Position numbers and translations under genes: made by a program
The notes under the pieces: generated by a model
What the model saw: the letters and a program-made list of their open reading frames with translations, nothing else
Databases searched by the model: none
Told to the model about the DNA's origin: nothing
Source of the DNA: Stygiobacter sp.
GTDB lineage: Bacteria; Pseudomonadota; Alphaproteobacteria; Rhodospirillales; Magnetospirillaceae
Reading direction: 5' to 3'
DNA length: 64,000 bases
NCBI GenBank assembly: GCA_006218045.1
Contig: VBWB01000016.1
Coordinates: 124,001 to 188,000, forward strand
Shown here: in pieces, positions 24,440 through 41,015 of the stretch
Layout of the letters: each line of letters starts with the position of its first letter
Numbering within the stretch: position 1 is the stretch's first letter

Positions 24440-24996
24440 CGCCACGTAAAACCGGCGAACAGCGCAAGGCGGAAATCATTGAAACCGCCCTGCTGCTGGC
24501 CGCCGAACTGGGCCCCGACCGCATCACCGCCGAAGCCATCGCGATCAGACTGGGGATCAGCCAACCGGCCATCTTCAAGCACTTTCCGCGCAAGGGCGAT
24601 ATCTGGGATGCGGTGATCGACTGGTTGGCCCGGTCCTTAGGCCGGGTCTGGACGGAAAGCACCACGGACGAGCCGCCCGAACAGCGCCTGTTCGCCCTGT
24701 TGGACGCCCATTTCGCCTTCATCGCCGCCCATCCCGCCGTGCCGCTGGTGTTGCTGTCGCCGGAATTGCAGGCCCGCCATCCGCCTCTGCGCCAGACGAT
24801 CATGCGGCTGATGGCGCTGTTCCATACCGAACTGCGACAAGCGATCAACGCCGGCCCCAGCCCACCGGGCAATGCCGACCAACGGGCATGGATGATGCTG
24901 TCCCTGGTCCAGGGCATTGCCGTCCGCTGGGCCCTGTCCGGCCACGCCTTCGACATCAGGGCCGAAGGTGGGGAACTGGTGAGACTTGTATGGTGA
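24436..24996 (+). CDS. TetR-family regulator of the efflux cassette, probably C-terminally altered
   Basis: 186 residues. The helix-turn-helix is clear (ITAEAIAIRLGISQPAIFKH followed by FPRKGDIWDAV). The C-terminal ligand domain is less conserved. It is the last gene of the adaptor-permease-ATPase operon and is the likely repressor acting on the palindromes at 21657-21679. Its final codons and stop lie within a transposon-like left end that starts at 24987, so the original C-terminus may have been replaced by insertion. Confidence 0.85.
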   Translation: MTPRKTGEQRKAEIIETALLLAAELGPDRITAEAIAIRLGISQPAIFKHFPRKGDIWDAVIDWLARSLGRVWTESTTDEPPEQRLFALLDAHFAFIAAHPAVPLVLLSPELQARHPPLRQTIMRLMALFHTELRQAINAGPSPPGNADQRAWMMLSLVQGIAVRWALSGHAFDIRAEGGELVRLVW

Positions 24997-25051
24997 CGCA
25001 ATTGTTTCATACTGAAACTGCGCTAAGTCATTGATTTTTCGTCACACGGAA
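24987..25051 (+). repeat. Tn7-like left-end element A, upstream of the NACHT gene
   Basis: Starts TGTATGGTGACG, contains GTTTCATACTGAAAC and ends CGTCACACGGA, so it has inverted GGTGACG/CGTCAC boxes at 24992 and 25040. Its 55-bp core (24992-25046) matches element B (27880-27934) at about 43 of 55 positions, in the same orientation. A further related site (GTTCCATACTG) lies at 25071-25081. It overlaps the tetR stop codon. It may be the left end of an older insertion, or a solo mini-element. Confidence 0.7.
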
Positions 25052-25084
25052 AAATCGTAACGACGTTAACGTTCCATACTGTCG

Positions 25085-25149
25085 TCCGCCGCGCTGCCCT
25101 GATTGATGCCTGCGCCGATCCAGTGGGGCTGGGGAAAGACGGCGCCTGC
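25085..25149 (+). pseudogene. Remnant copy of the mtgA 3' end
   Basis: 65 bp matching 57 of 65 positions of mtgA codons at 21334-21398. In frame it reads [20 protein letters not shown] before diverging to a stop, against the mtgA end [19 protein letters not shown]. It lies between the TetR gene and the NACHT gene, so the efflux cassette is bracketed by the true mtgA end and this diverged copy in the same orientation. Confidence 0.8.
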
Positions 25150-25190
25150 TCAACACAATGAAAAGATTGCGTCGAGCGAAATTTTATCTA

Positions 25191-25214
25191 CCCTTAAGGT
25201 GTATTGCTTAAGGG
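25191..25214. promoter_or_regulatory. Perfect inverted repeat just upstream of the NACHT gene
   Basis: CCCTTAAG (25191-25198) - 8 nt - CTTAAGGG (25207-25214), ending 10 bp before the ATG. It could be an operator, or an mRNA hairpin whose right arm sits beside the ribosome binding site and limits translation. Tight control would suit a toxic defence protein. Function inferred from position only. Confidence 0.45.
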
Positions 25215-25224
25215 CGGGACGGTC

Positions 25225-27873
25225 ATGGGCATTCCTTTTGACATCGATATCAAGCATGCCACCGATTGGCGCACCTTTGCCGGTAAAATGGGCGATGTCG
25301 CCGCCCAGGGCTTCCTGACCGCCTTGGGCGGCGACGGTATCAGCGGCGGCATCTCCGCCCTGTTCGACGCCCTGGCCGCCATCGGCAAGACCGAGAAATC
25401 GCCGGGGCGGCAGGGCTGGGAATTGTTCTGCCTGTCCTTCGCCTGGGCCTTCGATTCCCTGCGCCAGGATTTCTGCAAACCCGATGTGGCCAAACAGGCG
25501 GCGAAAGCAGCGCTGGAACAGGCGCGCACCCGCCTGACCGAGGCACAATACGAAATCACCACGGATTTCCTGAACTATCCCAGCAGCCTGCCGCTGTACC
25601 GGGAAATCCGCGATGCCTTCGTCGACCGCCGGGCCGAGTTCCGCCCGCAAGGCACGGAAAGCGCGGAAAGCCTGAAAGCCCGTTTCGATTCCGCCTTCAA
25701 CCGCGCCATCCATGCGGTATGGTCGCAACAGCCCGACCGCTTCGCCGCCCTGGCCCAGGCGCTGCACGCCCCCGGCCTCGAGGCCAGCGCATCCGAACGG
25801 CAATGGCAGGCCTATCGCCAACAGCTGATCCATGAATTCACCGTCAAGCCGGTCTTCGGCCAGGAACAGACCCGGGTGTCGCTGTCGCAGCTTTACGTGC
25901 CGCTGCGCGGGACATGGCGGGAGAAGGCCAAAGGCCGCGATGAGCGCTATCAGGAACACATCCCCGAGCGCGCCCCGCGCCATCTGCTGCGCCTGGATGA
26001 CATGCTGGACAATTGGGTGGATGCCACATCGTCCAAAGAAGACTGGCTGCGCCTGATCGGCGGCGGGCCGGGCAGCGGCAAATCCACCACCTTGAAGGCA
26101 TTGGCCGCCCGCTTGGCCGGGCGCGACGATATCCGCCCGATCTATGTGCCGCTACAACACATGAATCTAAACCAATCACTGCGCGAGGCGGTGAATTCCT
26201 GGCTGACGCAGACGGTGGAATCAGCGTTCCGCCAGCCGCCACTGGAACGCCAAGCGGTGGAAAACGGCCCGCGTCTGGTGCTGATCTTCGACGGCCTCGA
26301 CGAATTGTCCCGTCCCGGCGGCGAGGGGGCTGCGCAGGTGGTCAATTTGTTCGCCAACCGCCTGCAAGCGCTGCGCAACGAATTGGGGACACACATCCTG
26401 GCCCTGGTGGCCAGCCGTACCGTCGGGTTCCAAGAGGCGATCAAATATTTGGCTACCCAGCCGGAGCAAGCCGTCGAGGTGGCAGGATTATGCCTCCTTG
26501 GCAACACCAGCAACATGATCGGCGACGAAGCGATCAAGAGGCAGGATCAACGTCCAGATTGGTGGTACAGCTACGCCATCGCCACCGGCCAGCGGAGTGC
26601 CACCCCGGTGGCGATGACCCATAAATCCTTGAAGACTCTGACCACTGAACCGTTGCTATGCTATTTACTGGCCCTATCCGGCTATGTCACCGACAACTGG
26701 CGGGAAGCGGCGGAAAACCACAACCGCATCTATGAAAGACTGATCGGCGATGTGTGGCGGCGCGGCTGGGGCGACGGCGGTCGGTTGGGGCCGGGACGGG
26801 CCCTGACGCAAGAGGATTTCGTCCGCCTGATGGAAAGCGTGGCCCTGGCCGCCTGGCATGGCGGCGACACCCGTACCGCCGACGAAACCCGCTTCGCCGA
26901 GGCCTGCGACATCCTTGGCACCACGGACATATGGGCGGATTTCAAGAATATCAACGGCCCGGACATGGGCAATTTGGCACTGACTTTTTACCTGAAGACC
27001 TGTGACCACGACCGCCGTGGATTTGAATTCACCCATAAGAGCTTTGGTGACTACCTGACCGCCCGCGCCCTGTTTGCCATCGCCAGGGATTTGGCGCCAC
27101 AGATCAAACGCAATAAAAAGTCAGCAGCGGGAGAATGGCTGAAAGCCATCGGCAATGGGAAACTGACAGCCGAAATCATCGACTTCATTCGGGCGGAAGC
27201 GAGCCTTGCTGGCCCCCAAACCTGCAAAGATGTGCAAGCCAGCTTTGAAATGCTGGCGCCCCATGCCCTTGCAGAAGGCTTGCCAGCCCATAATGATGCG
27301 AAATATTGGCGTGAAGCGGAGATCCGACAGGACTCGGCGGAATGGGCCGTTTGGGCGATGATGAATGCGGCAGCGCGCATCACCGGCACTCTGTCGAACA
27401 TAAAATTCCCAGACAGAAATTCGCTCGACGCCTTACTCTCCAGAGTCAGACATGACGGGCATCTATTCAACACATGCCTATCCCATACAGAAATAAATCA
27501 TACAGATATAATCTTAAGATCACTACACATCATGGATATAACTCGGTCAAATATTAAAGATGTAAAATTTACGCAAGTTCAAACAACTCAATCTACTATG
27601 ACCAACACAATATTTACAGGGTGTGCCTTTTACGGCGTTTCATTTATTCGCAGCTTCATCTCTGACGCAAAATTTTACAACTGTACCTTCAAAGACAGCC
27701 TATTTGAGTATTGCGATATTTCGAATACATACATTGAAAACACCACCACAGACGAAAAATTATGTGGCGAAATTGGCGCACAAGGCACGCTCCGGAAAGA
27801 CGGACTCATACTCATCCCCCCCGGTTACCTGAATACCGACGAGGACGGCAACATCCGCTTCACCCCGAAATAG
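25225..27873 (+). CDS. NACHT-domain STAND NTPase with pentapeptide repeats, candidate antiphage protein
   Basis: 882 residues in three parts. Residues 1-~265 are an unidentified, mostly helical N-terminal domain, in the place of an effector or signalling domain. The NACHT module has Walker A GGGPGSGKSTTL (~279-290), Walker B LIFDGLDEL (~353-361), an Arg sensor region (LVASRTVGF), TTEPLLCYLL and FEFTHKSFGDYLTAR (~600-615), all typical of bacterial NACHT proteins. The end (~745-840) is pentapeptide-repeat-like (FTGCAFYGVSF, AKFYNCTFKDSLFEYCDIS) and probably acts as the ligand-sensing solenoid. Such proteins sense phage components and trigger abortive infection. The ATG at 25225 is used; a TTG at 25204 lies inside an inverted repeat. 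The pentapeptide part is strikingly AT-rich, and the last codons are duplicated at 39166-39188. Confidence 0.88.
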   Translation: MGIPFDIDIKHATDWRTFAGKMGDVAAQGFLTALGGDGISGGISALFDALAAIGKTEKSPGRQGWELFCLSFAWAFDSLRQDFCKPDVAKQAAKAALEQARTRLTEAQYEITTDFLNYPSSLPLYREIRDAFVDRRAEFRPQGTESAESLKARFDSAFNRAIHAVWSQQPDRFAALAQALHAPGLEASASERQWQAYRQQLIHEFTVKPVFGQEQTRVSLSQLYVPLRGTWREKAKGRDERYQEHIPERAPRHLLRLDDMLDNWVDATSSKEDWLRLIGGGPGSGKSTTLKALAARLAGRDDIRPIYVPLQHMNLNQSLREAVNSWLTQTVESAFRQPPLERQAVENGPRLVLIFDGLDELSRPGGEGAAQVVNLFANRLQALRNELGTHILALVASRTVGFQEAIKYLATQPEQAVEVAGLCLLGNTSNMIGDEAIKRQDQRPDWWYSYAIATGQRSATPVAMTHKSLKTLTTEPLLCYLLALSGYVTDNWREAAENHNRIYERLIGDVWRRGWGDGGRLGPGRALTQEDFVRLMESVALAAWHGGDTRTADETRFAEACDILGTTDIWADFKNINGPDMGNLALTFYLKTCDHDRRGFEFTHKSFGDYLTARALFAIARDLAPQIKRNKKSAAGEWLKAIGNGKLTAEIIDFIRAEASLAGPQTCKDVQASFEMLAPHALAEGLPAHNDAKYWREAEIRQDSAEWAVWAMMNAAARITGTLSNIKFPDRNSLDALLSRVRHDGHLFNTCLSHTEINHTDIILRSLHIMDITRSNIKDVKFTQVQTTQSTMTNTIFTGCAFYGVSFIRSFISDAKFYNCTFKDSLFEYCDISNTYIENTTTDEKLCGEIGAQGTLRKDGLILIPPGYLNTDEDGNIRFTPK

Positions 27874-27874
27874 C
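27851..27874 (+). repeat. Direct repeat copy 1 (3' end of the NACHT gene)
   Basis: 24 bp covering the last codons (IRFTPK) and stop of the NACHT gene plus one base. It is identical to 39166-39189 and in the same orientation. It abuts the TGT start of the transposon-like block at 27875. Confidence 0.95.
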
Positions 27875-27934
27875 TGTAGGGTGACGTAATAGTTTCATAC
27901 TGAAATGGCGTTAACACGCTGGTTTATCGTCACC
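27875..27934 (+). repeat. Tn7-like left-end element B
   Basis: Starts TGTAGGGTGACG, contains GTTTCATACTGAAA and ends ATCGTCACC. Positions 27875-27900 pair as inverted repeat with 39141-39166. The core 27880-27934 is the 55-bp relative of element A. It begins immediately after the 24-bp direct repeat at the end of the NACHT gene. Confidence 0.75.
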
Positions 27935-28223
27935 GCAGGTCCCAGGGCATGGGCTAAGGTTTCATACTTTTCCGTGGGCATAGACGTACCACCAAGCCTG
28001 CATGACGTGAACGAATCATACCGGCCGATGCCCGCCAGTACCTCCCCATGACACCAACGAGAACAAAGCATGACAGAGATGCAGCATGGTTGCCCATGGC
28101 AACCATCCGGAAAAGAAACGGCAAGCGTCCATAGGTGACGGACGGCTCATCCCTCTTCTCATTCTCGAAACCAGCGAACGGCCTGATCTGGAAGAGTTGA
28201 TCCGGTGACCTGCCATGGAACGC

Positions 28224-28431
28224 TCACGCAACCATTGGTCGCACACCATCCAAAGTTACGCTGTCTGGAGCGGGTTGGCCGACAGGCTTTGTGCAGGCCC
28301 GACGCGCGCTCATCTCGAAGGCACACCGCAGACGGACAACAGCGTCCCGCTTGGCGGCGACAAATCTCCGCCGCCGCGGCTCTGGCCACAGACTCAATGA
28401 TCCGTTCTTCTGAAATCCTGCCGCGTTTCAT
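28224..28431 (-). pseudogene. Remnant of an IS3-family transposase
   Basis: The minus strand begins MKRGRISEERIIESV, like an IS3-family OrfA start. After a frame change it continues RDAVVRLRCAFEMSARRAC, like the start of OrfB, and then stops. The helix-turn-helix, the leucine zipper and the whole DDE catalytic domain are missing, so this is an internally deleted, dead fragment. It lies close to the left end of the larger element. Confidence 0.6.
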
Positions 28432-28628
28432 AAGTCCGCCCTTTCTGTGGGCCGGATTCCACTTCATTTTTGAGGAAATCAACCCAGGCCGACCAAAGGG
28501 CAAGTGTGTAAAAACCATTAACTTCATTTGTTAAATATATGCCGTGATCTTTTCACGGTAACTTGTTTGCAGTTGCGTGATGCGATACCTTCGCATGTCC
28601 AACGGCGCGATTTGCGGAGTTCGCGGTC

Positions 28629-30344
28629 ATGAGCTTTATTGACGGATTGAAGATTCGAAACAAGATTCTGGTCTCGATCGTGACCGTGGTGATGGCGGCG
28701 ACGGCGGCCTTGACCTATCTGTCCGTCACTCTCAAAAACACCACCGATGAGTTTAATCATCTGATCTTCGGGCCGCTGGAAGCCGCCAGGGTCGGGAGCG
28801 AATGGCAATTTCAACTGGCGGAGATGGGGCGGCTGACCAATCAGGCCCTGTTGCAGGGCGACACTATCAATTTGGCGGATTTGCGCACCAAGCTGACGGC
28901 CATCAACGCGGCGCGCCGGACGTCGCGTGAAACGTTGCAGGGCTTGTTGCCCGAATACGCGCAGCGATGGACCGAGATGAACGCGACGGCCGCGCTTTTG
29001 AACACGGATGCGGACAAGTTCCTGACTCTGTTGGGCCAGCCCGGGGGCACCGCCGCCGCTGACCGTTTCTGGAGCGAAGCCGGACGTCCGGCCCTGATCA
29101 AGCAGCGCGACGCCCTGCAGACCATCATCGAAGAGGTGAAAAGCAAGGCCCATCAGGAAACCGACGCCGTCGAGGACGATGTCCACAAAGCGTTGCTGCA
29201 TTCGGTCCTGGGCGCCTCTATCGGCATGCTGTTGGCGACTCTGCTGGCCCTTTATATCGCCCAAACCCGCATCGTGCGGCCGCTTTCGGTGCTGACCACC
29301 AAGACGGTGCGTCTGTCCAAGGGCGATGACGCGTTTGATCTGAACGAAGTGGATCGGCGCGACGAGCTGGGCGATCTGGGCCGGGCGCTGCAAAGCTTCA
29401 AGGATAACGCCGCCACCTTGCGCGCCATGACCAAGGCCGAGGCGGTGACCCGCCAGATTGGCGAAGTGATCGGCGCCGCCGCCAACAAGGATTTTTCCGC
29501 CAAGGTCGATCTCAACCTGACCGAAGGGTTCTTGAAGGACATCGGTGTGGCCGTCAACCGCTTGCTGGAAACCTGCGCCGGGGCGTTTAAGGATTTCACC
29601 CAGCAAGCCACCCAAACCGCCCTTTCCGTGGATGAAGCCAGCACCGCGGTCGGTCAGATTTCCGACGGCGCCCGCACCCAGACCAATCAATTGGCCCAGG
29701 TTTCCACCGCTTTGGGCGATGCCGCCCAGGCCATCCGTTTGGTGACGCAGACCGCCGGCAGCGCCCGCGACAAGGCGGAAGTCGCCGCCAAGGCGGTGGA
29801 TGCCGGCAAGGACGCGGTGGGGCAATTGGCCACCATCGTCGAAGCCATCACCCAGAACAGCCGCAAGGTCAATCAGATCACCCAGGTGATCGCCCAGATC
29901 GCCGACCGCACCCACATCTTGTCGTTGAATGCCGCCATCGAGGCGGCGCGGGCCGGCGAACACGGCAAGGGCTTCGTGGTGGTGGCGCAGGAAGTGGGCA
30001 AGCTGGCGGAAAGCTCGGCCCAGAACGCCAAGCAGATCGCCGACATCGTCGAACAGGCGTCGCAAGAAGCGTTGCTGGGCAAGGCCGCCACCAAGACGGT
30101 GGGCGATTGCATGGGCGACATCGCGTCGGGCACCGACGAAACCAACACGATGATCCGTTCCATCGCGGTCGCCATGGACGAACAGCAAGCCACCGTGGCG
30201 CAGATCGAAGGCAATGTGGCGGCGTTGAAGAACATCGCCCTGACCAATTCCAGCTCGGCGGAAGAAATCACCGCCACCATGATCCAATTGTCCAAGCAGT
30301 CCAACACCATGCGCCAGCGTCTCGCCGAATTCAAAACGGCCTGA
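28629..30344 (+). CDS. Methyl-accepting chemotaxis protein of the chemosensory operon
   Basis: 571 residues: transmembrane helix ~13-33 ([20 protein letters not shown]), a helical periplasmic sensor (~35-190, four-helix-bundle-like), a second helix (~193-215, [20 protein letters not shown]), HAMP, then a signalling domain with tip [20 protein letters not shown]. It is the first gene of the operon and the dedicated receptor for the CheA encoded downstream. Ligand unknown. The ATG at 28629 has GGAG upstream. cheR follows after 7 bp. Confidence 0.92.
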
Positions 30345-30351
30345 GCCCGTC

Positions 30352-31194
30352 ATGGAAGAGACGTCGACGCGTCTGGCGCACTTGATCGAGGAGCGCATCG
30401 GCATGCAAGCCAAGCTGTCGATTCCCCGGATCGCGGCCATGCTTGAAACCATGGCACCGGCCGCGCGCCAGACGTGGAGCAAATCCTTGTTGGATTCCCA
30501 ACCCGACGATCCGTCCTGGCTGGATTTCATCGAAGACATTTTCAATCACGAAACGTTTTTCTTTCGCCACCCCCGTCAATTGCAGCATCTGGCCGAAAAC
30601 GTCCTGCCGGATCTGATCCGGGCGCGGCGGCAGCGCGGCGAAACCCGGTTCCGAGTGTGGTGCGCCGGATGTTCCTCGGGCGAGGAAGTGCACTCCATCG
30701 CCCTGTTGGTCCGCCAGTCCCTGGCGTCCCCTGAAGGGGGGGGCGTTGGTCAGTGGGACCTGGAATTCCTGGGCACGGATTTGTCGTCCCGCATCCTGGA
30801 CACCGCCCGCCGGGGCCATTACGTCGCCAGTCCGGGGTTGAACAGTTTCCGCGACATTCCCGATTACGCCCAGGATTGGTTCCGGGCCGTGCTGCATGAA
30901 GGCCGCGATGTCTGGAGCCCGGATCCCGATCTGGCCCGGCGCATGCGGTTCCTGCCCCATAACCTGACCTGCGACCCGCCCCCCCTGGGGGATGTGGATC
31001 TGGTTCTGTGCCGCAACATCCTGATTTATTTCAACCTGCGCCACGCCCATGCCGCCATCGCCACACTGGCCCAGGCGTTGCGCCCTGGCGGCATCCTGGT
31101 GCTGGGACCAGCGGACGGATTACGCGAAGCGCCGGGGCTGGAGATGGTCTGCGACCCCCAAGCGGTTGTCTGGCGCAAGCGGGAGGCGGCATGA
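30352..31194 (+). CDS. cheR: Chemoreceptor methyltransferase CheR
   Basis: 280 residues. The N-terminal helical part is followed by the SAM-binding fold with VWCAGCSSGEEVHSIAL and the late motif VDLVLCRNILIYFN. HETFFFRHPRQLQHL is the usual CheR segment before the SAM site. It methylates glutamates on the receptor for adaptation. The stop overlaps the cheB start (ATGA). Confidence 0.93.
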   Translation: MEETSTRLAHLIEERIGMQAKLSIPRIAAMLETMAPAARQTWSKSLLDSQPDDPSWLDFIEDIFNHETFFFRHPRQLQHLAENVLPDLIRARRQRGETRFRVWCAGCSSGEEVHSIALLVRQSLASPEGGGVGQWDLEFLGTDLSSRILDTARRGHYVASPGLNSFRDIPDYAQDWFRAVLHEGRDVWSPDPDLARRMRFLPHNLTCDPPPLGDVDLVLCRNILIYFNLRHAHAAIATLAQALRPGGILVLGPADGLREAPGLEMVCDPQAVVWRKREAA

Positions 31195-32234
31195 CCACGC
31201 GGGTAAGTGTCGCCACCGCGTCTTCGTTCCTGTCTTTGGTGATCCGCCGCACCCTGGCGGCGGTGCGCCATATGGACAGCCTGCCCGTGGACCGCGATGC
31301 CCAAACCGCCGTGACCACCCTGACCGCCAATCCGGAACTGGCCATCATCGACGCCGAATTGTTGGGCGGCGAGGACGGGGCCTTGACGGTGGCGTTGGCA
31401 CGCCGGACGCGCCCAAGCATCGTGCTGGATTCCTATGGCCGGGGCATCCCCACTGCCTTGGCCGCCTGCCCGCACATATACGCCCTGAGCGGACGACTGA
31501 AGGGCGAACTGGATCTGGAAAGCATCGAATCCGGCTTGCGCCCGCTGATCAGCGAAGCACGGCGCAACCGCCCCTTGATCGCACATGACCAGCCCGTGGT
31601 GGTCCCGAAGCCGCCTTCGGGCCCGGCCTTGCCGCCCGCCGGCGCGCTGGATCTGGTGGTGGTGGGCGTATCCACCGGTGGGCCGCCGTTGTTATTGCAA
31701 TTGATGTGCGACTTGCGCGAACCGATGGTGCCGCTGTTGATCGTTCAGCACATGCCGGAAAACCATACCGCCGGTTTCGCCGCCAGGCTGGCCGAGGAAT
31801 GCGGCCGCGAGGTGGTGGAAGTGGGGGCGGGACCGTTGCCGCCGCCCCATGTCATCGGCGTGGTGCGCGGCGGGCGCGATTACGGGGTGATCCGCCGCCC
31901 CAGCGGCGGATTGTCCCTGCGCGAAGTGCGTTTGCCCGACAATCCGTTCCATCCCAGTATCGATTCCGTGCTGCTAAGCGCCGTCGCCGCCGACCTGGCG
32001 GTCGCCGCCGCCATCCTGACCGGCATGGGTCAGGATGGGGCCGAAGGCGCGGTGGCGTTGGCCGCACGCGGCTTGCCGGTGGTGGCCCAGAGGCCCGACA
32101 CCTGCGCCGTGGCGGGCATGCCGCAGGCGGTCATCGATCGTGGTGCGGCCCAGCGCGTCTGCGGTCCCGAGGGATTGATCACGACCTTGAACACGTGGTG
32201 TTCCGCATCGACCCAACGCGAGGATTGCCCATGA
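31191..32234 (+). CDS. cheB: Chemoreceptor methylesterase CheB with degenerate receiver
   Basis: 347 residues. The C-terminal methylesterase is intact: GVSTGGPP (catalytic Ser), IVQHMPENHT (His) and TGMGQDGAEG (Asp). The N-terminal ~120 residues occupy the receiver position but read VATASSF where the acidic pair should be. An Asp at ~54 (AIIDAELLGG) remains; no clear switch Thr/Ser-Lys pair is seen. It may therefore not be regulated by phosphorylation in the normal way. Its stop overlaps the next gene by 4 bp. Confidence 0.9.
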   Translation: MTTRVSVATASSFLSLVIRRTLAAVRHMDSLPVDRDAQTAVTTLTANPELAIIDAELLGGEDGALTVALARRTRPSIVLDSYGRGIPTALAACPHIYALSGRLKGELDLESIESGLRPLISEARRNRPLIAHDQPVVVPKPPSGPALPPAGALDLVVVGVSTGGPPLLLQLMCDLREPMVPLLIVQHMPENHTAGFAARLAEECGREVVEVGAGPLPPPHVIGVVRGGRDYGVIRRPSGGLSLREVRLPDNPFHPSIDSVLLSAVAADLAVAAAILTGMGQDGAEGAVALAARGLPVVAQRPDTCAVAGMPQAVIDRGAAQRVCGPEGLITTLNTWCSASTQREDCP

Positions 32235-32659
32235 CACGCCCCCCTGTCGGATTGGTGCTGATCACTGCGGACACCACCTTCGCCACCCTTTTCCGCCATG
32301 CGTTGGAAACGCGCGAGGATCTGGTCGTGCACGACGCCGTCATCCCCGATCAGGCGCTTGAGACCGTCCGTCGCCATGGCCCCGCCCATGTCGTCGTCGA
32401 TGCCGACGGACAGGCCGTGGCCAATGTGGTGCGCCTGTGCCGCAAACTTTTGCTGGTCCGTCCGGTGGGGGTGGTGCTGACCGGGGCCTATCTGGGGCTG
32501 GGTTCGGCGGTCCTCACCCACATCCTGGAAGCGGTGCCGGCCCGATCGGTGATGAAGCCGGGAGGCTGCGCCGGATTGGCCCTGGCCGACGAGACCACGG
32601 CCGCTAGCTTTGCCGACGCCCTGGTCCGCGCCCTTGGTTGCGGAACGGAGGCGGCATGA
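32231..32659 (+). CDS. Pseudo-receiver-like protein, 142 residues
   Basis: Size and pattern of alternating hydrophobic strands (VGLVLITADTTFATLF, AHVVVDADGQAVANV, LVRPVGVVLTGAYLG) suggest a response-regulator fold. The receiver acidic pair is absent and the putative Asp site reads VVVDAD. It resembles the degenerate receiver at the front of the adjacent CheB in style. Coupled to cheB and cheA by 4-bp overlaps on both sides, so it is a true operon member. It might be a phosphorylation-independent adaptor. Function unknown. Confidence 0.65.
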   Translation: MTRPPVGLVLITADTTFATLFRHALETREDLVVHDAVIPDQALETVRRHGPAHVVVDADGQAVANVVRLCRKLLLVRPVGVVLTGAYLGLGSAVLTHILEAVPARSVMKPGGCAGLALADETTAASFADALVRALGCGTEAA

Positions 32660-35364
32660 TGCACGACATCGATCCCGGTCTGATCGCCGATTTCGCCGAG
32701 GAAGTGATCGAGCACGTGGCCAGTGCTGAAACCGTGCTGGTGCGGGCCGCCGCCGAACAGATCGGCGCCGATGACATCAATCTGCTGTTCCGCAGCTTTC
32801 ACTCGGTCAAAGGGTTGGCCCGGGTCATCGGTTTTCAGGCCGCCGAATCCTTGGCCCATGCCGCCGAAACGGTCCTGTCCGACGTGCGTGATGGCCGCCG
32901 CCCCTTGGACGAGCGGGTGCAAAACCTGCTGCTCCAATCCCTGGACGCCCTGAAACTGGCCCGCTCCAGCCTGTTGGACGGGATCGGTTATGCCGGCGAC
33001 GATGCGTTGCTGGCCCAGTTGCAGGCGCTGGGCGATCCCCAGGCCGCCCCTCAGGCCGACAATCCGTCCCGGCTGCCCGATCATCCCCTGGCCGATCTGT
33101 ACTTCGACGCCGGAACCTTGGACGGTCTGGTGGAATTGCTGGAAGAAGTGCTGCCCGATATCGCCGCCTGCATCGCCCGCGGCGCCGATCCGGCGGGGGG
33201 GGACGTGGACACCTTGGTCTTCGCCTTGGAACGCATCGATTGCCTGGGGCCGGTGCAGCCCCTGCAACGGCTGAAGCGGGAACCGTCGGTGTCGGTCCTG
33301 GTGGAATGCCTGCTGGCGTTGTCGCATTTGTTCCAGGTGATGGAATGCGACGGATTGGCCCCGACCCTGGCGCTGATCCGGCCCAATCTGGTCCAGGCCC
33401 TGGTCAAGGCGCTGGATCAGGGGCAGTGGTCGTCCATCGAGAACCTGGCCCGCATATTGCTGCCCCATTCCCCCTATCACGGGGTTTTGGCGCAAATCCC
33501 GCGTGATGACTGCCCCGCCGATCTGCGGGCGCGGGCCTACGAGGTGACGGCGGCGGCGTTGCGGTCTGAACTGGGGGGCGACGACAACACGCCACCGTCG
33601 GAATTGGGCGGCTTGGCCGCCACCGAAATGCGCAACGAACTGGCCGCCCGGCTGGGCCCGCCCGACGCAGCCATGAAGATCCTGGGAAACCGCAGGATCG
33701 ATCCGCACCGCTTCCGCGCCGCCGGTTCCGCGCTGGCGCAACGGCTGGCCCGGCTGCAAGACGCGTCCGGCGAATTCTTCGAAGTGCGCTTCGATGTGCC
33801 GCCCGCCAGCCCGGCATTGATCGAGACGGCCCGCATCCTGGCCTTGGACTGGGACCCATTGCTGGCCGAGACCGCCCTGGTGGACGGCGTCCAATGTTTG
33901 TGTCTTCTGGTCTTCAGCGATCTGTCGGAAGACAATATCAGAGCCCGGCTGGATAACGTTCCCGCCTTGCCGGTGGTGGTGGGCGTGACCAAGATGAACG
34001 GCCAGCAAGGCCAGGTCCGCTTCACCTTGATCGAACGCCGCGAAGGCGCGGCGGTCGGCAGCGGCATCCAAGTCCGCGTGCCGGTGGCGCTGTTGGACAC
34101 CATGTTCGGGCGATTGGGGCAATTCTTCGGGGTGATGACACGCTTCAACGCCTTGGTGCTGGACAACGAAGTGCCCGCGGCCTTGCGCGAATTGTCCGAT
34201 TACGCGGTGCTGCACGCCCCACATCTGGCGGCCAAGGTGGATTTGCTGGCACGCCAGCACCGCGACCTGTCGACGATCGAAGCCGAGGCCCACCGCCTGT
34301 TGTCGGTGGTGCACGAAACCACCCTGGGGCTGCGCGTCATCCCGCTCGACACCTTGTTCTCGCGCTTTCCCCGCATGGTGCGCGACACCGCCCAGCAGAC
34401 GGGCAAGCAAGTGCGCTTCGACGCCCGCGCCAACGGTATCCGGGTGGATAACGGCATGCTGGAATTGCTGTCCGACCCGTTGATGCACATGCTGCGCAAC
34501 AGCATCGATCACGGCGTCGAGCCCCCTGCCGATCGCGCCGCCCTGGGCAAGCCGGCCCAAGCCACGGTGATCGTCAGCGCCGAACAGCGCGGCAACCACA
34601 TCGTCATCGAAATCCGCGACGACGGGCGCGGCATCAATATCGAACGCGTGTTGGAAAAAGCCGTCGCCAACGATCTGGTCAGCCGCGAACAGGCGGCGCT
34701 GCTGACCGACGACCAGATCGCCCGCTTCATCTTCGCCCCCGGCTTTTCCACCGCCCAGGCGGTCACCGACACGTCGGGGCGTGGCGTCGGCATGGATGTG
34801 GCCCTGGTCAACATCACCAAGCTGGGCGGCAAGATCGACATCATCAACCGTCCCGGCCTGGGCTGCTGTTTCCGTCTGGAAATTCCGCTGTCCAAGGCCA
34901 TCCAGTCCATGCTGCTGGCCGATACGGGCATCCAGAAAGTGGCCTTTCCCGACCGCACGGTGTCGGAAGTGGTGATCTGTGCCACGGACGGGGTGCAGTT
35001 GGTCAACGGCCAGAGGTCGATGCTGCTGCATGACCGCTTCCTGCCTTTGTTCCGGTTGATCGACCTGTTGGGCCTGCCGCCCGGCCCCCCCCGGATCCAC
35101 GGCGATTTTTCCGTGGTGGTGTGCGAACATGACGGCCAGCGCATCGGCGTCGAGGTGGCGGCGATCCTGCGTCGCGCCGATCTGTTGATCCAGGAAATGC
35201 ACCCGCGCATCGCCCATCTTCCGGGTATTGGCGGCATTTCCACCATCGGAACCGACAAGATCGTCATCGTCGTCGATCCCGACGGCCTGTTCGCTTTGGC
35301 CCGCCAGGCGGCGGTGTTCGGGCTGCGGTCCCACGACGTCCGGGTGGCGGAGGGGTTGTTCTGA
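32656..35364 (+). CDS. cheA: Chemotaxis histidine kinase CheA
   Basis: 902 residues. The N-terminal Hpt domain has FHSVKGLARVIGF with phosphoacceptor His49. A long divergent middle (~130-470) replaces standard P2 and may hold further Hpt-like helices. The dimerisation and ATPase domains follow (MHMLRNSIDHGVEP; IRDDGRGINIERV; TSGRGVGMDVA), then a CheW-like P5 domain. No C-terminal receiver is fused. It should autophosphorylate in response to the operon's receptor and pass phosphate to a receiver, most plausibly that of the cyclase downstream. It overlaps its neighbours at both ends. Confidence 0.93.
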   Translation: MMHDIDPGLIADFAEEVIEHVASAETVLVRAAAEQIGADDINLLFRSFHSVKGLARVIGFQAAESLAHAAETVLSDVRDGRRPLDERVQNLLLQSLDALKLARSSLLDGIGYAGDDALLAQLQALGDPQAAPQADNPSRLPDHPLADLYFDAGTLDGLVELLEEVLPDIAACIARGADPAGGDVDTLVFALERIDCLGPVQPLQRLKREPSVSVLVECLLALSHLFQVMECDGLAPTLALIRPNLVQALVKALDQGQWSSIENLARILLPHSPYHGVLAQIPRDDCPADLRARAYEVTAAALRSELGGDDNTPPSELGGLAATEMRNELAARLGPPDAAMKILGNRRIDPHRFRAAGSALAQRLARLQDASGEFFEVRFDVPPASPALIETARILALDWDPLLAETALVDGVQCLCLLVFSDLSEDNIRARLDNVPALPVVVGVTKMNGQQGQVRFTLIERREGAAVGSGIQVRVPVALLDTMFGRLGQFFGVMTRFNALVLDNEVPAALRELSDYAVLHAPHLAAKVDLLARQHRDLSTIEAEAHRLLSVVHETTLGLRVIPLDTLFSRFPRMVRDTAQQTGKQVRFDARANGIRVDNGMLELLSDPLMHMLRNSIDHGVEPPADRAALGKPAQATVIVSAEQRGNHIVIEIRDDGRGINIERVLEKAVANDLVSREQAALLTDDQIARFIFAPGFSTAQAVTDTSGRGVGMDVALVNITKLGGKIDIINRPGLGCCFRLEIPLSKAIQSMLLADTGIQKVAFPDRTVSEVVICATDGVQLVNGQRSMLLHDRFLPLFRLIDLLGLPPGPPRIHGDFSVVVCEHDGQRIGVEVAAILRRADLLIQEMHPRIAHLPGIGGISTIGTDKIVIVVDPDGLFALARQAAVFGLRSHDVRVAEGLF

Positions 35365-35810
35365 TGATCGAGCATCTGGTCGCCCGCTGCGGTGTCTATC
35401 GCATGCTGTTTCCCAGCGAAAATGTCGGCGACATCCGCCCCCTGCCCGAATTCGTCCGTTTGTCTCCGGTCAAGATCCGGCGTACCGTCCCCGTGGTTTT
35501 GGATTTGCGGGTCTATCTGGGAGTGCCTGCTCCCGATTGCGGGGTGCGCATGGGCTGGCATTCCACGGATGGCGCACGCCGTGTGGATCTGGTGCTGGAC
35601 GAGGTCGAAGCCATCGTTCATTGCGGCCCCGGCGACCGCCGCCCCACCCCCATGCTGCCGCCACGCCTGCGTCTGTTGTGCGACGGCGCCATGCCTGATT
35701 CCCAGGGCCGGTTCCGGCTGTGTATCCGACCTGATACGGCTCTGCCCGTGTCCAGCCCACGCGACCGCCGCGACGTCCTGGCGGCCCTGCGTTTCGAGGA
35801 GATGCCATGA
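35364..35810 (+). CDS. CheW-like coupling protein (divergent)
   Basis: 148 residues. YRMLFPSENVGDIRPLPEFV and VVLDLRVYLGVP resemble CheW strands where the docking proteins meet CheA and receptor, but the family match is weak. It sits between cheA and the cyclase, overlapping both (TGATG and ATGA junctions). It probably couples receptor and CheA, alongside the triple-CheW protein at the end of the operon. Confidence 0.65.
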   Translation: MIEHLVARCGVYRMLFPSENVGDIRPLPEFVRLSPVKIRRTVPVVLDLRVYLGVPAPDCGVRMGWHSTDGARRVDLVLDEVEAIVHCGPGDRRPTPMLPPRLRLLCDGAMPDSQGRFRLCIRPDTALPVSSPRDRRDVLAALRFEEMP

Positions 35811-37531
35811 CCACCGACAGCAAGACGATCCTGATCGTCGACGACAGTTCGATCATGCGCCGCTTGGTCCGCGAAATCGTCGAGGCCGACCCGATCTTCC
35901 GGGTGGTCGATGTCGCCGAGAACGGCAAGATCGCGTTGCAGAAAGTGCGCGAACATAAACCCGACGCGGTATTGCTGGACATCGAGATGCCGGAATTGTC
36001 GGGCCTTGACACCATGCGCCGCCTGGGTCTGCGCAGTTCGTCCAAGATCATCATCTTGTCGTCCCTGGGTTATGAGGGATCGAAGGAGCGCGCGGAAGCA
36101 TTGCGCCTGGGGGCCGCCGACGTCATCGACAAGCCGTCGGGGTCGGTCAGCATGGACATCAAGGCGGCGCGGGCCTCGGTGATCAACCAGACCCTGCGCC
36201 GGGTGCTGGGCCTGCCCCCCGCCCCAGAGGCCGCCGATGCGGCGCCCTCGGCCGCCCTCGAAGAAACCGTTTCCACCCCCCCGACCCAGCCCGCCGGCGG
36301 TTCCGCCGCCGGTTCCGCCCCCCTGGCGATGGCTTTGGACACGGTTCGTCAAGCGGTGCTGGCCTTCGGCATCGATGGTCGCCTGTTCTATGCCAATGCG
36401 GTCGCGCCCAGGCTTTTGGGCGATGACGGCATCGCCGCCGGGCGCAGCACGCTGGATCAGGTCTTCGACGGCCTGAACGAATTCATCGTCGATGATATCC
36501 GCGCCGTTTTAGCCGACGGCGCGGCCAAGGCCGCCTTGCCGGTGGATTACGCCCTGCCGTCGGGGGATTGGCTGCCGTGCCTGTTCACCATCGTGCCGGT
36601 GCCCGATCCCAACGGGCGCGGCAACGGCGTCTTGGTGCTGATCGAAGACAAGTCGGTCGAACATTCCTTGCGCAAGGTGTTGGATCAGACCATGTCGTCC
36701 AGCGTCACCGACGCCATCATCGCCGGTGATTCCTTGGGACTGGACGGCAAGGAAGCGGACGCGACCATGTTGTTTTGCGACATCCGCTCGTTCACGACCT
36801 TGTGCGAGAACATGTCGGCGGGGTCCCTGGTGGCCATGCTGAACGAGTATTTCACCTTCATGGCCGATGTAATCCGGGGCAATAACGGCATCATCGACAA
36901 ATATATCGGCGACGCCATCATGGCGTTGTTCGGGGTGCCGAGCGCCAATCCGCGCCAGGCCGACGACGCGGTGGCGGCGGCCATCGCCATGATCCAGGCG
37001 CTGGAACTGTTCAACGGCGATCGCGCCAAGGCGGGGGAAGCGTCGTTCCAGATCGGGATCGGCATCGCCAGCGGCATGGTCATCGCCGGCACCTTGGGGT
37101 CACCCGAACGCAAGAATTACACGGTGATCGGCGATGCGGTGAATTTGGCGTCGCGCATCGAAGGCCTGACCAAGCTTTACGGCGCCGAGATCCTGGTCTG
37201 CGGCCGCACCCGCGCCGCCATGACGGGCCGCGTGCCGACCCGTCTGGTCGATGTGGTCAAGGTCAAGGGCCAGGACACGGCCACGGAACTGCACCAGATT
37301 TTGAACCGCGCCATTCTGGGGGCGGCGCTGGACACCCATCTGTCCAGTTTTGCCGCCGCCCTCGCCGCCTATCAGGAGGGGCGGTTCCAGGCAGCCGGAG
37401 AGGCCTTTGACGCCATCGCGCGCCATATTCCCGACGACGCCACATCCGCCATGCTGGCGGCGCGCTGTCGCGATCTGGCCGCCGCCCCGCCGGCGAATTG
37501 GCAGGGAATCTGGAAATTGGACAGCAAATAG
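35807..37531 (+). CDS. Receiver-PAS-adenylate cyclase, likely output of the chemosensory operon
   Basis: 574 residues. The receiver (1-125) has Asp12/Asp13, phosphoacceptor Asp58 (LLDIEMP) and a CheB-like end (DKPSGSVSMDIKAAR). A Pro/Ala linker, a PAS domain (~180-300, VLAFGIDGRLFYANAVAPRL) and a class III cyclase follow. Catalytic residues are visible: metal Asp325 (LFCDIRSF) and Asp369 (GDAIMALFG), adenine-selecting Lys365 (IIDKYIGD) and YTVIGDAVNLASRIE. Lys plus Asp indicates ATP rather than GTP. CheA phosphorylation of Asp58 would set cAMP levels. The operon has no CheY. Confidence 0.9.
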   Translation: MTTDSKTILIVDDSSIMRRLVREIVEADPIFRVVDVAENGKIALQKVREHKPDAVLLDIEMPELSGLDTMRRLGLRSSSKIIILSSLGYEGSKERAEALRLGAADVIDKPSGSVSMDIKAARASVINQTLRRVLGLPPAPEAADAAPSAALEETVSTPPTQPAGGSAAGSAPLAMALDTVRQAVLAFGIDGRLFYANAVAPRLLGDDGIAAGRSTLDQVFDGLNEFIVDDIRAVLADGAAKAALPVDYALPSGDWLPCLFTIVPVPDPNGRGNGVLVLIEDKSVEHSLRKVLDQTMSSSVTDAIIAGDSLGLDGKEADATMLFCDIRSFTTLCENMSAGSLVAMLNEYFTFMADVIRGNNGIIDKYIGDAIMALFGVPSANPRQADDAVAAAIAMIQALELFNGDRAKAGEASFQIGIGIASGMVIAGTLGSPERKNYTVIGDAVNLASRIEGLTKLYGAEILVCGRTRAAMTGRVPTRLVDVVKVKGQDTATELHQILNRAILGAALDTHLSSFAAALAAYQEGRFQAAGEAFDAIARHIPDDATSAMLAARCRDLAAAPPANWQGIWKLDSK

Positions 37532-37541
37532 GGGGCAGGCC

Positions 37542-38936
37542 ATGGCACAACGCGACCTTCTGTGCTGCAATTTTTCCGACGGGATCGTCGCTGTTCCGCT
37601 GGAACAGGTGGTCGGCGTGGTCGAAGGCGGGCCGGTCACGCCCTTGCCCTATACGGCATCATCCTTTGAAGGCCTGGTCGAGGCCTTGGGCCAAGTCATG
37701 CCCCAGGTCGACCTGGGGGCGTTGCTGGGCCTGGATTCGACCGCCTCGGGTATCTTGGTGGTGGTCTCGCATCTGGGCGGATCGTTGGCCCTGCGGGTCC
37801 CCAAGGTCAGCGCCATGATTTCAGTGGACGGCGACAAATTCGCCGCCGCCGCCCGCGACCGCAATGCCCTGTATCTGTCCGAATTCGAACAAGGTGGCCA
37901 GATCTTCTCGGTCCTGGACCTGGACATGGTGGCCAAGGCCGAGGAACTGGGAGGCGCGGTGCCCGAAGGGGCGGTGATGCTGGCCGAGGCCAGCCACCGC
38001 GCCCCCCCGGCCGCTCCCGTGGACGACATCCAGTTGGTCTTTCTAATGCTGGAGGTGGACGGTGAACCCTATGCCATCCGCAACAGTGACATCGCTGAAA
38101 TCAATCTGCCCCACCATGTGCGGCCCATGCCGAAATCTCCCGACTGGATCGGCGGACTGATCGATTTGCGCGGGCGGCCCGTGGTGGTTCTGTCTACCGC
38201 AGCCCTGTTGGGCCGCGACGCGGCCAGCGCCACCGCCGGGGATGCCCCGCAGGTCTGCCTGATCGCCGAAATCGAACCGGGCCTGGAAGTGGCTTTGGCG
38301 GTGGACCGCGCCGTCGGGCTGGAACGGTTGTCGCCTGACGACGTCCACACCATGCCCCAGGCCATGGCCGGAGTGGAAAGCTATTTCGTGCGCGGCGCCG
38401 ATGAAATCGTCGGCATCATCGATCCCGTCGCCCTGGTGACGCAAATTCTGTTCACCTTGCGCCAATGGTTGCCGCAAAACGTCGCTGCCCCGGTCGCGAC
38501 CGGCGAGATGGGGGGCAATTATCGTCGGTTCCTGACGCTGAGGGTGCGCGATGAATTGTTCGGGATGGCGCTGGACCGCATCGAACGCATTCAGGCTGCG
38601 GTGGATTTGACGCCGTTGCCCGACACCATCGCCTTTTTCGACGGCATGGCCGATGTGGGGGACACGGTGGTACCGGTGATCGATCTGAACCGGCAATTGG
38701 ACCGCAGCCTGTCCAGCCTGGACGGCGACCGTCACCCCCCCTGCATCCTGACCATGCTGGAAGGATCGTTGACCGGCATCTTGGTGGATCAGGTGCTCAG
38801 CATCCTGGACGTGCCCTCGGACAGCATCGAACCCGTGGTCAACGCGCCCAAGCTGCCGATTTCCCATATCGTTCCCCATGGCGGGCGCATGATTTCAATT
38901 CTCAGCATCGACCGGTTGTTGCCGGCGCAATCCTGA
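37542..38936 (+). CDS. Protein with three CheW-like domains
   Basis: 464 residues with three consecutive CheW folds (~1-150, ~160-310, ~325-464). Typical strands recur: IQLVFLMLEVDGEPYAIRN, GLIDLRGRPVVVLSTAALLG, and RRFLTLRVRDELFGMALDRI. The third ends with LPISHIVPHGGRMISILSID. Proteins with several CheW domains act as scaffolds that join receptors and CheA into arrays. It is the last gene of the operon, 10 bp after the cyclase, with a good GGGGGCAGG site before the ATG at 37542. Confidence 0.85.
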   Translation: MAQRDLLCCNFSDGIVAVPLEQVVGVVEGGPVTPLPYTASSFEGLVEALGQVMPQVDLGALLGLDSTASGILVVVSHLGGSLALRVPKVSAMISVDGDKFAAAARDRNALYLSEFEQGGQIFSVLDLDMVAKAEELGGAVPEGAVMLAEASHRAPPAAPVDDIQLVFLMLEVDGEPYAIRNSDIAEINLPHHVRPMPKSPDWIGGLIDLRGRPVVVLSTAALLGRDAASATAGDAPQVCLIAEIEPGLEVALAVDRAVGLERLSPDDVHTMPQAMAGVESYFVRGADEIVGIIDPVALVTQILFTLRQWLPQNVAAPVATGEMGGNYRRFLTLRVRDELFGMALDRIERIQAAVDLTPLPDTIAFFDGMADVGDTVVPVIDLNRQLDRSLSSLDGDRHPPCILTMLEGSLTGILVDQVLSILDVPSDSIEPVVNAPKLPISHIVPHGGRMISILSIDRLLPAQS

Positions 38937-39007
38937 TCCGGACGCAGATCAAGAGGTCACGCCCAAAGCAATGTCGAGAATAGTGGGTTGACGCCACCGG
39001 ACAAAAA

Positions 39008-39033
39008 TATCCGGTGACGCGATAGTGTCATAC
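39008..39033 (+). repeat. Transposon end-like site C
   Basis: TATCCGGTGACGCG... followed by a GTGTCATAC end; 22 of 26 positions match the right-end site D3 in inverted orientation. With D3 it bounds a 159-bp mini-element (39008-39166) whose 9-bp inverted ends CCGGTGACG/CGTCACCGG (39011-39019, 39155-39163) are perfect. It may be a left end from another round of insertion at glmS. Confidence 0.65.
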
Positions 39034-39100
39034 CAAACAACACCTAACCTGACCTGTTCCCCGGCTTGATCCCGTTCAGAGGTTGGGTATCCTGGATTCG

Positions 39101-39166
39101 GTATGAAACTATTTCGTCCGGTATGAGACTATTTCGTCGAGTATGAAACTATTTCGTCACCGGACA
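39101..39166 (-). repeat. Tn7-like right end: three tandem 18-nt sites plus terminal ACA
   Basis: GTATGAAACTATTTCGTC occurs at 39101, 39121 (one mismatch) and 39141, with exact 20-bp period. The outermost copy continues ACCGGACA to the presumed terminus at 39166. Closely packed transposase sites in the end nearest glmS are the layout of the Tn7 right end. Three copies with 2-bp gaps rule out a CRISPR array. Confidence 0.75.
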
Positions 39167-39189
39167 CATCCGCTTCACCCCGAAATAGC
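39166..39189 (+). repeat. Direct repeat copy 2, beside the glmS stop
   Basis: Identical to 27851-27874. In the NACHT frame it encodes IRFTPK and a stop. It ends 2 bp before the glmS stop codon (39192-39194). It is either a remnant of a NACHT gene once adjacent to glmS, or a duplicated attachment site. Confidence 0.95.
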
Positions 39190-39191
39190 GC

Positions 39192-41015
39192 CTATTCCAC
39201 CGTCACGGATTTGGCCAGATTGCGCGGCTGATCCACGTCGGTGCCGCGCGCCAGGGCGACGTGATAGGCCAGCACCTGTACCGGCACCGCGTACAGGATG
39301 GGGGCGACGAAGGGATCGACCGGCGGCATCTGGAACGAGGCCATGGGCTTGACCGCCAGTTTGCTCAGGCCTTCGGAATCGGAGATGAAGATCACGCGGG
39401 CGCCGCGCGCGATCACTTCCTGCACATTCGACGCCGTCTTGTCGTACAGATCGTCCGACGGACACAGCACCACCACCGGCACGTGGTCGTCGATCAGGGC
39501 GATGGGGCCGTGTTTCAATTCGCCCGCCGCATAGCCCTCGGCGTGGATATAGCTGACTTCCTTCAGCTTCAACGCCCCTTCCAGGGCGATGGGGTAGCAC
39601 GGGCCACGGCCCAGATACAGCACGTCGCGGGCCTGGGCCACGTCTTCGGCGATCTGGCGGATCTTGTCCTCGCCGCGCAGCATCTCGGCGATGCGCGCCG
39701 GTACTTCGGCCAGGGCCTGCGACAGCCGCGCTTCCTCCGCCGCGTCAAGGCGGTTGTTGGCCCGGGCCATGCCCATGGCCAGGCAGGCCAGCACCACCAA
39801 TTGGGTGGTGAAGGCCTTGGTCGAGGCGACGCCGATTTCCGGCCCGGCCTGGGTCAACAGCGCGGTGGTCGCCTCGCGCGCTATGGTGCTTTCCGCCACG
39901 TTGACCAGGGCCACGGTGTGCAGACCGGCGTCACGGCAATAGCGCAAAGCCGCCAGGGTGTCGGCGGTTTCCCCCGATTGCGAGATGAACACCGCCATGT
40001 CGCCGGGCACCAGCACCGGCTGGCGGTAACGGAATTCCGAGGCGATTTCCACTTCCACCGGCACCCGCGCCAGTTTCTCGATCCAGTACTTGGCGACCGA
40101 GCCAGCGTAATACGAGGTGCCGCAGGCGACGATGGTCACCCGCTTGACCGTGGCCAGATCAAACGGCAGATCGGGCAAGGTGATGGTGCGGCTGGCCGGG
40201 TTGAGCATGGTGTTCAGGGTGTCGCCGATCACCTGCGGCTGCTCGTAGATTTCCTTGATCATGAAATGGCGGTGCTGGCCCTTGCCGATCAGGGCGCCGG
40301 ACAATTGGGTCAACCGCACCTCGCGCTTGACGATCCTGTCATCACGGTCGCGGATGACCACGCTGGAGGGCGTCAGCACCGCCCAATCGCCCTCGGCCAG
40401 ATAGCTGATCTTCTGGGTCAGGGGCGCCAAGGCCAGGGCGTCGGAGCCCAGGAACATCTCGCCGTCGCCATAGCCGATGGCCAGCGGGCTGCCTTCACGC
40501 GCGGCGATCAACAGATCGGGGTGATCGGCGAAAATGATACCGAGGGCGAAGGCGCCGTGCAGGCGCTTCAGCGCGGCGGCGGTGGCCTCCTCGGGCGATT
40601 TGCCTTGGCCCAGGTAGAAGTCGATCAGTTGCGCCACCGCCTCGGTGTCGGTGTCGCTCTCGAACACATGGCCGCAGGCGGTCAGCTCGGCCTTGAGCTC
40701 GGCGTAATTCTCGATGATGCCGTTATGCACCACCGCCACCCGCGCGGTGGCATGCGGATGGGCGTTGCGTTCGGTCGGCACGCCGTGGGTGGCCCAGCGG
40801 GTATGGCCGATGCCGATGATGCCGCCCAAGGGCTGGGTGACCAGCAGGCGCTCCAGGTTGATCAGCTTGCCCTCGGCCCGGCGACGCTCGATCCGGCCCG
40901 CGACCAAGGTGGCGATGCCGGCGGAATCATAGCCGCGATATTCCAGCCGCTTCAGCCCTTCCACCAGATGCGGGGCGACCAGATCCTTACCGATGATGCC
41001 GACGATGCCGCACAT
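39192..41015 (-). CDS. glmS: Glucosamine-6-phosphate synthase GlmS
   Basis: 607 residues. The N-terminal glutaminase starts MCGIVGIIG with the nucleophile Cys, and HTRWATHG and two SIS isomerase domains follow (VACGTSYYAG; ISQSGETADT; GRGPCYPIALEGALKLKEVS). It makes glucosamine-6-phosphate from fructose-6-phosphate and glutamine for cell-wall precursors. The end PRNLAKSVTVE is the conserved Tn7 target-site coding sequence. It is the second gene of a glmU-glmS unit, 3 bp after glmU. Confidence 0.97.
   Translation of the reverse strand: MCGIVGIIGKDLVAPHLVEGLKRLEYRGYDSAGIATLVAGRIERRRAEGKLINLERLLVTQPLGGIIGIGHTRWATHGVPTERNAHPHATARVAVVHNGIIENYAELKAELTACGHVFESDTDTEAVAQLIDFYLGQGKSPEEATAAALKRLHGAFALGIIFADHPDLLIAAREGSPLAIGYGDGEMFLGSDALALAPLTQKISYLAEGDWAVLTPSSVVIRDRDDRIVKREVRLTQLSGALIGKGQHRHFMIKEIYEQPQVIGDTLNTMLNPASRTITLPDLPFDLATVKRVTIVACGTSYYAGSVAKYWIEKLARVPVEVEIASEFRYRQPVLVPGDMAVFISQSGETADTLAALRYCRDAGLHTVALVNVAESTIAREATTALLTQAGPEIGVASTKAFTTQLVVLACLAMGMARANNRLDAAEEARLSQALAEVPARIAEMLRGEDKIRQIAEDVAQARDVLYLGRGPCYPIALEGALKLKEVSYIHAEGYAAGELKHGPIALIDDHVPVVVLCPSDDLYDKTASNVQEVIARGARVIFISDSEGLSKLAVKPMASFQMPPVDPFVAPILYAVPVQVLAYHVALARGTDVDQPRNLAKSVTVE

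Follow-up and report, generated by a model that had tools for sequence, protein, structure and literature searches.

The window analysed here comprises 64,000 nt of contig VBWB01000016.1 (positions 124,001–188,000) from the 4.33-Mb genome of a Stygiobacter sp. (G000), a Magnetospirillum-like bacterium. Beside its glmS gene lies a block of 11.3 kb (27875–39166) in which a whole chemosensory operon is enclosed between ends of the Tn7 type. The two ends and the attachment-site gene are as follows, + and - giving the strand.

27875–28021, +: left end 2 (L2), terminus and core site at 27875–27900, weaker site at 28001–28021
39099–39166, -: right end (R3), three predicted binding sites with a 20-bp period, terminus CGTCACCGGACA
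39192–41015, -: glmS, the attachment-site gene, matched in 13/13 genomes of the genus, this one included

Tn7-type ends at glmS in the window and in related genomes

The block opens with TGT (27875–27877) and closes with ACA (39164–39166), and its outer 26 nt form inverted repeats that agree at 23 of 26 positions, with mismatches at positions 4, 5 and 13. The right end holds 20-nt copies of one site at 39099, 39119 and 39139, which are 90–100% identical to the reference copy, and the boundary lies 25 bp from the glmS stop codon (39192–39194). In outline this is as the preliminary description had it; the spaced related sites that it saw in the left end stood only in part. One strong site is found there, at 27880, and the others are weaker than stated: the second, at 28001, scores 16.5 bits (13.3 bits with the first matrix), and a half-site GTTTCATAC is visible at 27959–27967. 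The termini and the arrays of ~20-bp sites, denser at the right end, are those of a Tn7-like element. In scans with the 21-nt core GGTGACGnAATAGTnTCATAC, allowing up to 3 mismatches and using the reversed core as a control, 6 occurrences were found in the window, against a mean of 0 and a maximum of 0 in 100 shuffles. The same 6, and no others, were recovered from the entire genome (reversed control, 0), so that the end motif is not scattered genome-wide but confined to the island at glmS.

The genus set consists of 13 genomes, G000 included. The region past the glmS stop codon, of which 90 bp were read per genome, was readable in 12 of them; in G007 the glmS match covered residues 1–248 and no more. 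Six genomes have a Tn7-type end in this region (G000, G001, G005, G009, G011 and G012), and no end was found in these 90 bp in G002, G003, G004, G006, G008 and G010. The distance to the stop codon is 23–25 bp in all six: 25 bp in G000, G009 and G012, 24 bp in G001 and G005, and 23 bp in G011. The right ends of G001, G005, G011 and G012 are near-identical to that of the window; G009 has a variant type, as well as a second glmS copy that has no end. Genus-wide, the core occurs in 8/13 genomes (G006 having just one match, at 3 mismatches), and the reversed core gave one match, in G009.

Transposition genes were sought by tblastn with five proteins from G001, namely TnsA, TnsB, TnsC, TnsD and a 646-residue protein. 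The window gave no match at 1e-3, as had been claimed, and a matching TnsB was not found in the genome at E≤1e-20; one candidate, at C29, was rejected as a distant rve-type protein. Five of the 13 genus genomes possess tnsB (G001, G005, G009, G011 and G012). In G001, G005 and G009, tnsA, tnsB, tnsC and tnsD stand beside the right end (the tnsD match being split in two in G009), and in G011 and G012 pieces of tns genes lie on broken contigs. In Pfam the G001 proteins had matches to TnsA (N and C), Mu-transpos_C, TniB/AAA and TnsD/TniQ; against the NCBIfam models none was reached at 0.01. The preliminary description suggested looking for tnsABCD genes that go with such ends, and the genus has them, beside a right end that in G001 and G005 is near-identical to that of the window and in G009 is a variant.

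The 646-residue protein is encoded beside tnsD (L029:5830–7770, minus strand) and is conserved in G001, G005 and G009, in the last as pieces. It had no match in Pfam, NCBIfam or PDB, and we regard it as a candidate accessory target selector. Other genes of the G001 element (L028:5204–13086 and L029:1126–3627) encode a STAND NTPase, TPR and CHAT proteins and a type III restriction protein (ResIII), a typical defence cargo.

A site without the island, also suggested as a check, was found in G002, a close congener. There a relative of the TetR-type regulator to the left of the island, 90% identical to it, directly adjoins glmS, and the two sequences are collinear up to position 24978 of the window and again from 39192. 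The piece absent from G002 measures ~14.2 kb and includes a NACHT gene, compared with the 11.3 kb first described. The ends in relatives, their spacing, the tns genes beside them and this empty site together support the earlier proposal of a TnsD-type insertion at glmS.

The chemosensory operon and its distribution

Between L2 and the right-hand ends lie eight co-directional genes, most of them overlapping, in the order MCP (methyl-accepting chemotaxis protein)–CheR–CheB–open reading frame (ORF)–CheA–ORF–receiver/PAS/cyclase–CheW3, with all frames intact.

28629–30344, +: methyl-accepting chemotaxis protein (Pfam HAMP and MCPsignal; conserved signalling motif present)
30352–31194, +: CheR methyltransferase (Pfam 4.7e-37)
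31191–32234, +: CheB methylesterase (Pfam 1.3e-38; motifs GVSTGG, QHM and GMGQDG)
32231–32659, +: small ORF between cheB and cheA (no Pfam match; 32222–32659 scanned)
32656–35364, +: CheA histidine kinase (Pfam Hpt, HATPase_c and CheW; HSVKG, DDGRG, GFST and GRGVG present)
35364–35810, +: small protein (no Pfam match; L084 and L087 have relatives in the corresponding position)
35807–37531, +: receiver-PAS-class III nucleotidyl cyclase (Response_reg 2.8e-23, PAS_4 1.5e-07, Guanylate_cyc 1.9e-25)
37542–38936, +: CheW protein with three CheW stretches (Pfam 4.7e-54 in the longer ORF 37350–38936; first ATG at 37542)

The operon thus holds what a Che pathway comprises: an MCP, a CheA with Hpt, HATPase and CheW domains, CheW, CheR, CheB and a receiver output protein. 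The motifs for phosphorylation, methyltransfer, methylesterase and cyclase activity are all present, among them the N-box of CheA (NSIDHG in the translation) and the phosphorylation-site motifs VDDS and LLDIE of the receiver-cyclase. The N-terminal part of CheB gave no Pfam receiver match; judged by eye, the small ORF at 32231–32659 is possibly a decayed receiver domain. From the domain content, the predicted output of the pathway is the receiver-PAS-cyclase, and hence cyclic AMP (cAMP), rather than a flagellar CheY. Signals would pass from the MCP to CheA, with adaptation by CheR and CheB, and the phosphorylated receiver-PAS-cyclase would then alter the level of cAMP, its presumed product.

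Distribution was followed through the genus set and through larger samples of the family (55 genomes), order (317), class (385) and phylum (398); candidates at first look were limited to at most 16 per genome for CheA in the family, 4 for the receiver-cyclase in the order, and 2 each for the NACHT protein in the class and CheA in the phylum, so that misses are possible. Among the 13 genus genomes only G000 has a full-length CheA match, the others having paralogues that are 33–38% identical over part of the protein. Matches to CheA past 1e-75 occur in 4/55 family genomes, G000 included, and one other (G048) is nearly full length; the receiver-cyclase reaches 1e-100 in 2/317 order genomes, again G000 and G048. 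In the phylum sample CheA matched 2/398 genomes at 1e-90, G000 and G902, the latter in the kinase half (41%). A scan of genome contigs with the receiver-cyclase, covering the best 80 of 124 relatives, returned one full-length match (55%), on L087 (CAMAUX010000017.1), from a Verrucomicrobiota metagenome-assembled genome (MAG) named Chthoniobacter flavus, and the second-best relative among these 80 is 36% identical over residues 278–574. The L087 contig, whose flanks were looked over by eye, could be mis-binned. No match to the receiver-cyclase or CheA was found on plasmids at 1e-60, and none to the receiver-cyclase in viral contigs. L085 and L086 (from G013 and G049) carry a related type of chemosensory operon, the match being limited to the receiver part of the receiver-cyclase.

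A CheA tree of 24 rows unites the window, L087 and L084 (from G048) with support of 100/99, with the window and L087 joined at a fork of 93/84, and places this clade apart from the 19 other genus CheA rows included. An old chromosomal operon, beside which Tn7-type ends piled up by chance, would sit well with the host-like G+C content of these genes. Such a history is very improbable, however, given that the 12 other genus genomes lack a full-length CheA match, that the G002 site is without the operon, and that CheA groups with the Verrucomicrobiota MAG and one family member. Foreign base composition was discarded as a test of origin, the operon resembling its host; G+C is low towards the 3' end of the NACHT gene and, to a lesser degree, across the left end and the start of the MCP gene. 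The absence of a full-length CheA match from the rest of the genus and of the operon from the G002 site, with the grouping of CheA in the tree, also bears out the earlier proposal that the chemosensory genes are cargo, which were probably acquired horizontally.

Stacked elements and the 23-bp repeat

The block proved to be as described, but not to be the whole: the island is larger (24987–39191) and consists of a stack of decayed elements. No tRNA gene was found in the window. Further features of the island and its left flank are these.

24436–24996, +: TetR-type regulator (Pfam TetR_N), whose reading frame runs into L1
24987–25012, +: left end 1 (L1), terminus TGTATGGTGACG and core site, 1 mismatch to the core
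25204–27873, +: NNH3-NACHT-pentapeptide STAND NTPase (Pfam NNH3 1.1e-13, NACHT 4.4e-10)
27852–27874, +: 23-bp repeat, left copy, the last codons of the NACHT gene
38978–39003, -: R2, an old, decayed right end that points right and belongs to a related end family
39008–39033, +: left end 3 (L3), 1 mismatch to the core, of a gutted mini-element
39167–39189, +: 23-bp repeat, right copy, between R3 and glmS

There are three left ends (starting at 24987, 27875 and 39008, the first being the outer left boundary of the entire island), one strong right end (39099–39166) and one decayed right end (38978–39003). The last, R2, matches the variant terminus to the left of the G001 element at 19/26 positions; five places in the window score at least 19/26 against that terminus, namely R2 and four known ends, and the highest score in five plain shuffles was 17. 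The R2 relic and L3, 4 bp apart, both lie inside the block, and the L3–R3 remnant measures 159 bp. Stacking is seen elsewhere too, since in G001 an old right end adjoins a new left end and in G012 two left ends stand 782 bp apart. Between the latter (L036:9601–10578) there is a piece resembling TnsA (61%), and inspection by eye suggests end repeats of a different type.

The gene between L1 and L2, the left-hand cargo, is a candidate anti-phage gene. Its NACHT protein was found at E≤1e-20 in one of the 55 family genomes, its own, and at 1e-30 in 2/385 genomes of the class sample, its own and one at 28% identity; it is absent at the G002 site, and plasmids gave no match at 1e-20. Compared with PADLOC it matched mads_8 at 2e-4 and nothing else. 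Its 40-residue C-terminus, sought as a possible origin of the 23-bp repeat, occurs among the family genomes in its own genome only, so that the 23 bp could stem either from the NACHT gene or from the old attachment site.

The two copies of this exact direct repeat abut both boundaries of the block, which marks L2 and R3 as the ends of one unit. We accordingly favour, at a probability of about 0.87, reading 27875–39166 as a non-autonomous Tn7-type composite with chemosensory cargo that was assembled at glmS and mobilized in trans. The reading builds on the observed ends and their spacing, the tns-bearing relatives, the empty site, the patchy distribution and the intact frames and motifs; the lack of tns genes in the block and the decayed ends in the stack agree with the earlier statement that the element is non-autonomous or decayed. 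At least two TnsD-type elements would have inserted successively beside glmS, in an order that we infer, one of them (L2–R2) carrying the chemosensory operon, and its neighbour would have been reduced to the 159-bp L3–R3 remnant with its strong right end kept. L2 and R3 may then have acted as one unit, or have remained as one after a deletion. Insertion next to glmS would have relied on tnsABCD from a different element, similar to those of the congeners, a mobilization in trans to which the ends and their spacing point. More tentatively, where elements are stacked beside glmS, left and right ends belonging to different elements might in general pair, so that all the DNA between them is moved; a whole array-based cAMP pathway could then travel between distant bacteria as one piece, with strand joinings that in this case would be 23 bp, not 5 bp, apart.

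Several observations weigh against the composite. Tn7 is expected to produce a 5-bp target-site duplication, and the flanking repeat here is 23 bp long. Neither L1 (flank AGACT) nor L3 was found to have a 5-bp partner, and pairing either with R3 was rejected for want of a matching flank. The direct repeats abutting the elements of relatives are 5 bp in G001 (ACCTG), 6 bp in G009 (TGGCGA) and 5 bp in G012 (CAACC, a presumed pairing of ends on two contigs), but in G011 the flanks of the left and right ends, likewise on two contigs, mismatch (ACAGC versus AGCCC), and for G005 a left end was not found. About 14 bp at the G002 junction differ, so that the empty site does not match base for base. 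Moreover, tnsA, tnsB, tnsC and tnsD/tniQ were not found inside the block by tblastn at 1e-3, the CheA tree carries long-branch warnings, the G+C content of the operon resembles that of the host, and a second strain carrying the same element was not found.

The flanking repeat also bears on two other explanations. Two separate complete insertions, L2–R2 (27875–39003) and then a mini-element L3–R3 (39008–39166) between it and glmS, are possible but considerably less likely. The 4-bp step from the R2 relic to L3 does resemble the junction of old right and new left ends in G001, and G012 also has neighbouring left ends; yet the left flank of L3 (AAAAA) and the right flank of R3 (CATCC) differ, and it is the flanks of L2 and R3 that share an exact 23 bp. 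This identity, placed exactly at both boundaries and far longer than 5 bp, might instead be the core of a recombination by which the block was gained, with the Tn7-type ends as passengers. We consider this improbable, because the boundaries coincide with transposon termini at the standard spacing from glmS and no recombinase is present among the nine proteins of the block scanned with Pfam, smaller ORFs not being scanned.

Comparison with known Tn7-type elements and chemosensory operons

Tn7-type elements are known chiefly to carry defence, resistance and other mobile genes. That a chemosensory operon would be an unusual cargo, as first suggested, holds good: no report of one was found in the literature searched, most subscription-journal papers being outside its scope. 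A survey of Tn7-like cargo reports an enrichment of defence genes (PMC8649781), which the NACHT gene of the window fits; its main text has 0 uses of chemotaxis or chemosensory, the sole word starting with 'chea' being an author name in the references, and the accessible part of PMC10293859 has 0 uses of chemotaxis. The island indicates that the several genes of a signalling module, that of its output enzyme among them, can be carried together at glmS. Tn7-type carriage offers a concrete route for the patchy distribution of the operon, and the stack hints at how composite units can arise from decayed elements that share a site.

Chemotaxis operons gained horizontally have been reported before. 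According to the accessible text of PMC3245306, Azospirillum, from a related group, gained chemotaxis operons, one class of which was horizontally transferred; these are likewise whole operons, but no Tn7-type carrier is named there. In the operon of L087 the known genes follow the order seen in the window, with a receiver-PAS-cyclase that is 55% identical over its full length and a CheA that is 49% identical over 914 columns, whereas the gene order in G048 (L084) differs. Around neither operon were Tn7-type ends found: in L084–L087 the best matrix scores are 6.2–9.7 bits, compared with 24.3–31.5 bits for the six sites of the window, and the tns queries gave no match at 1e-8.

With Tn7 itself and with the Tn7-like elements at glmS in G001, G005 and G009, the block of the window shares the TGT/ACA termini, the dense right and sparse left ends, and a fixed spacing and orientation relative to glmS. 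It differs from them in having no tns genes, in its flanking repeat of 23 bp rather than 5 bp, in being a composite of ends and in its chemosensory cargo.

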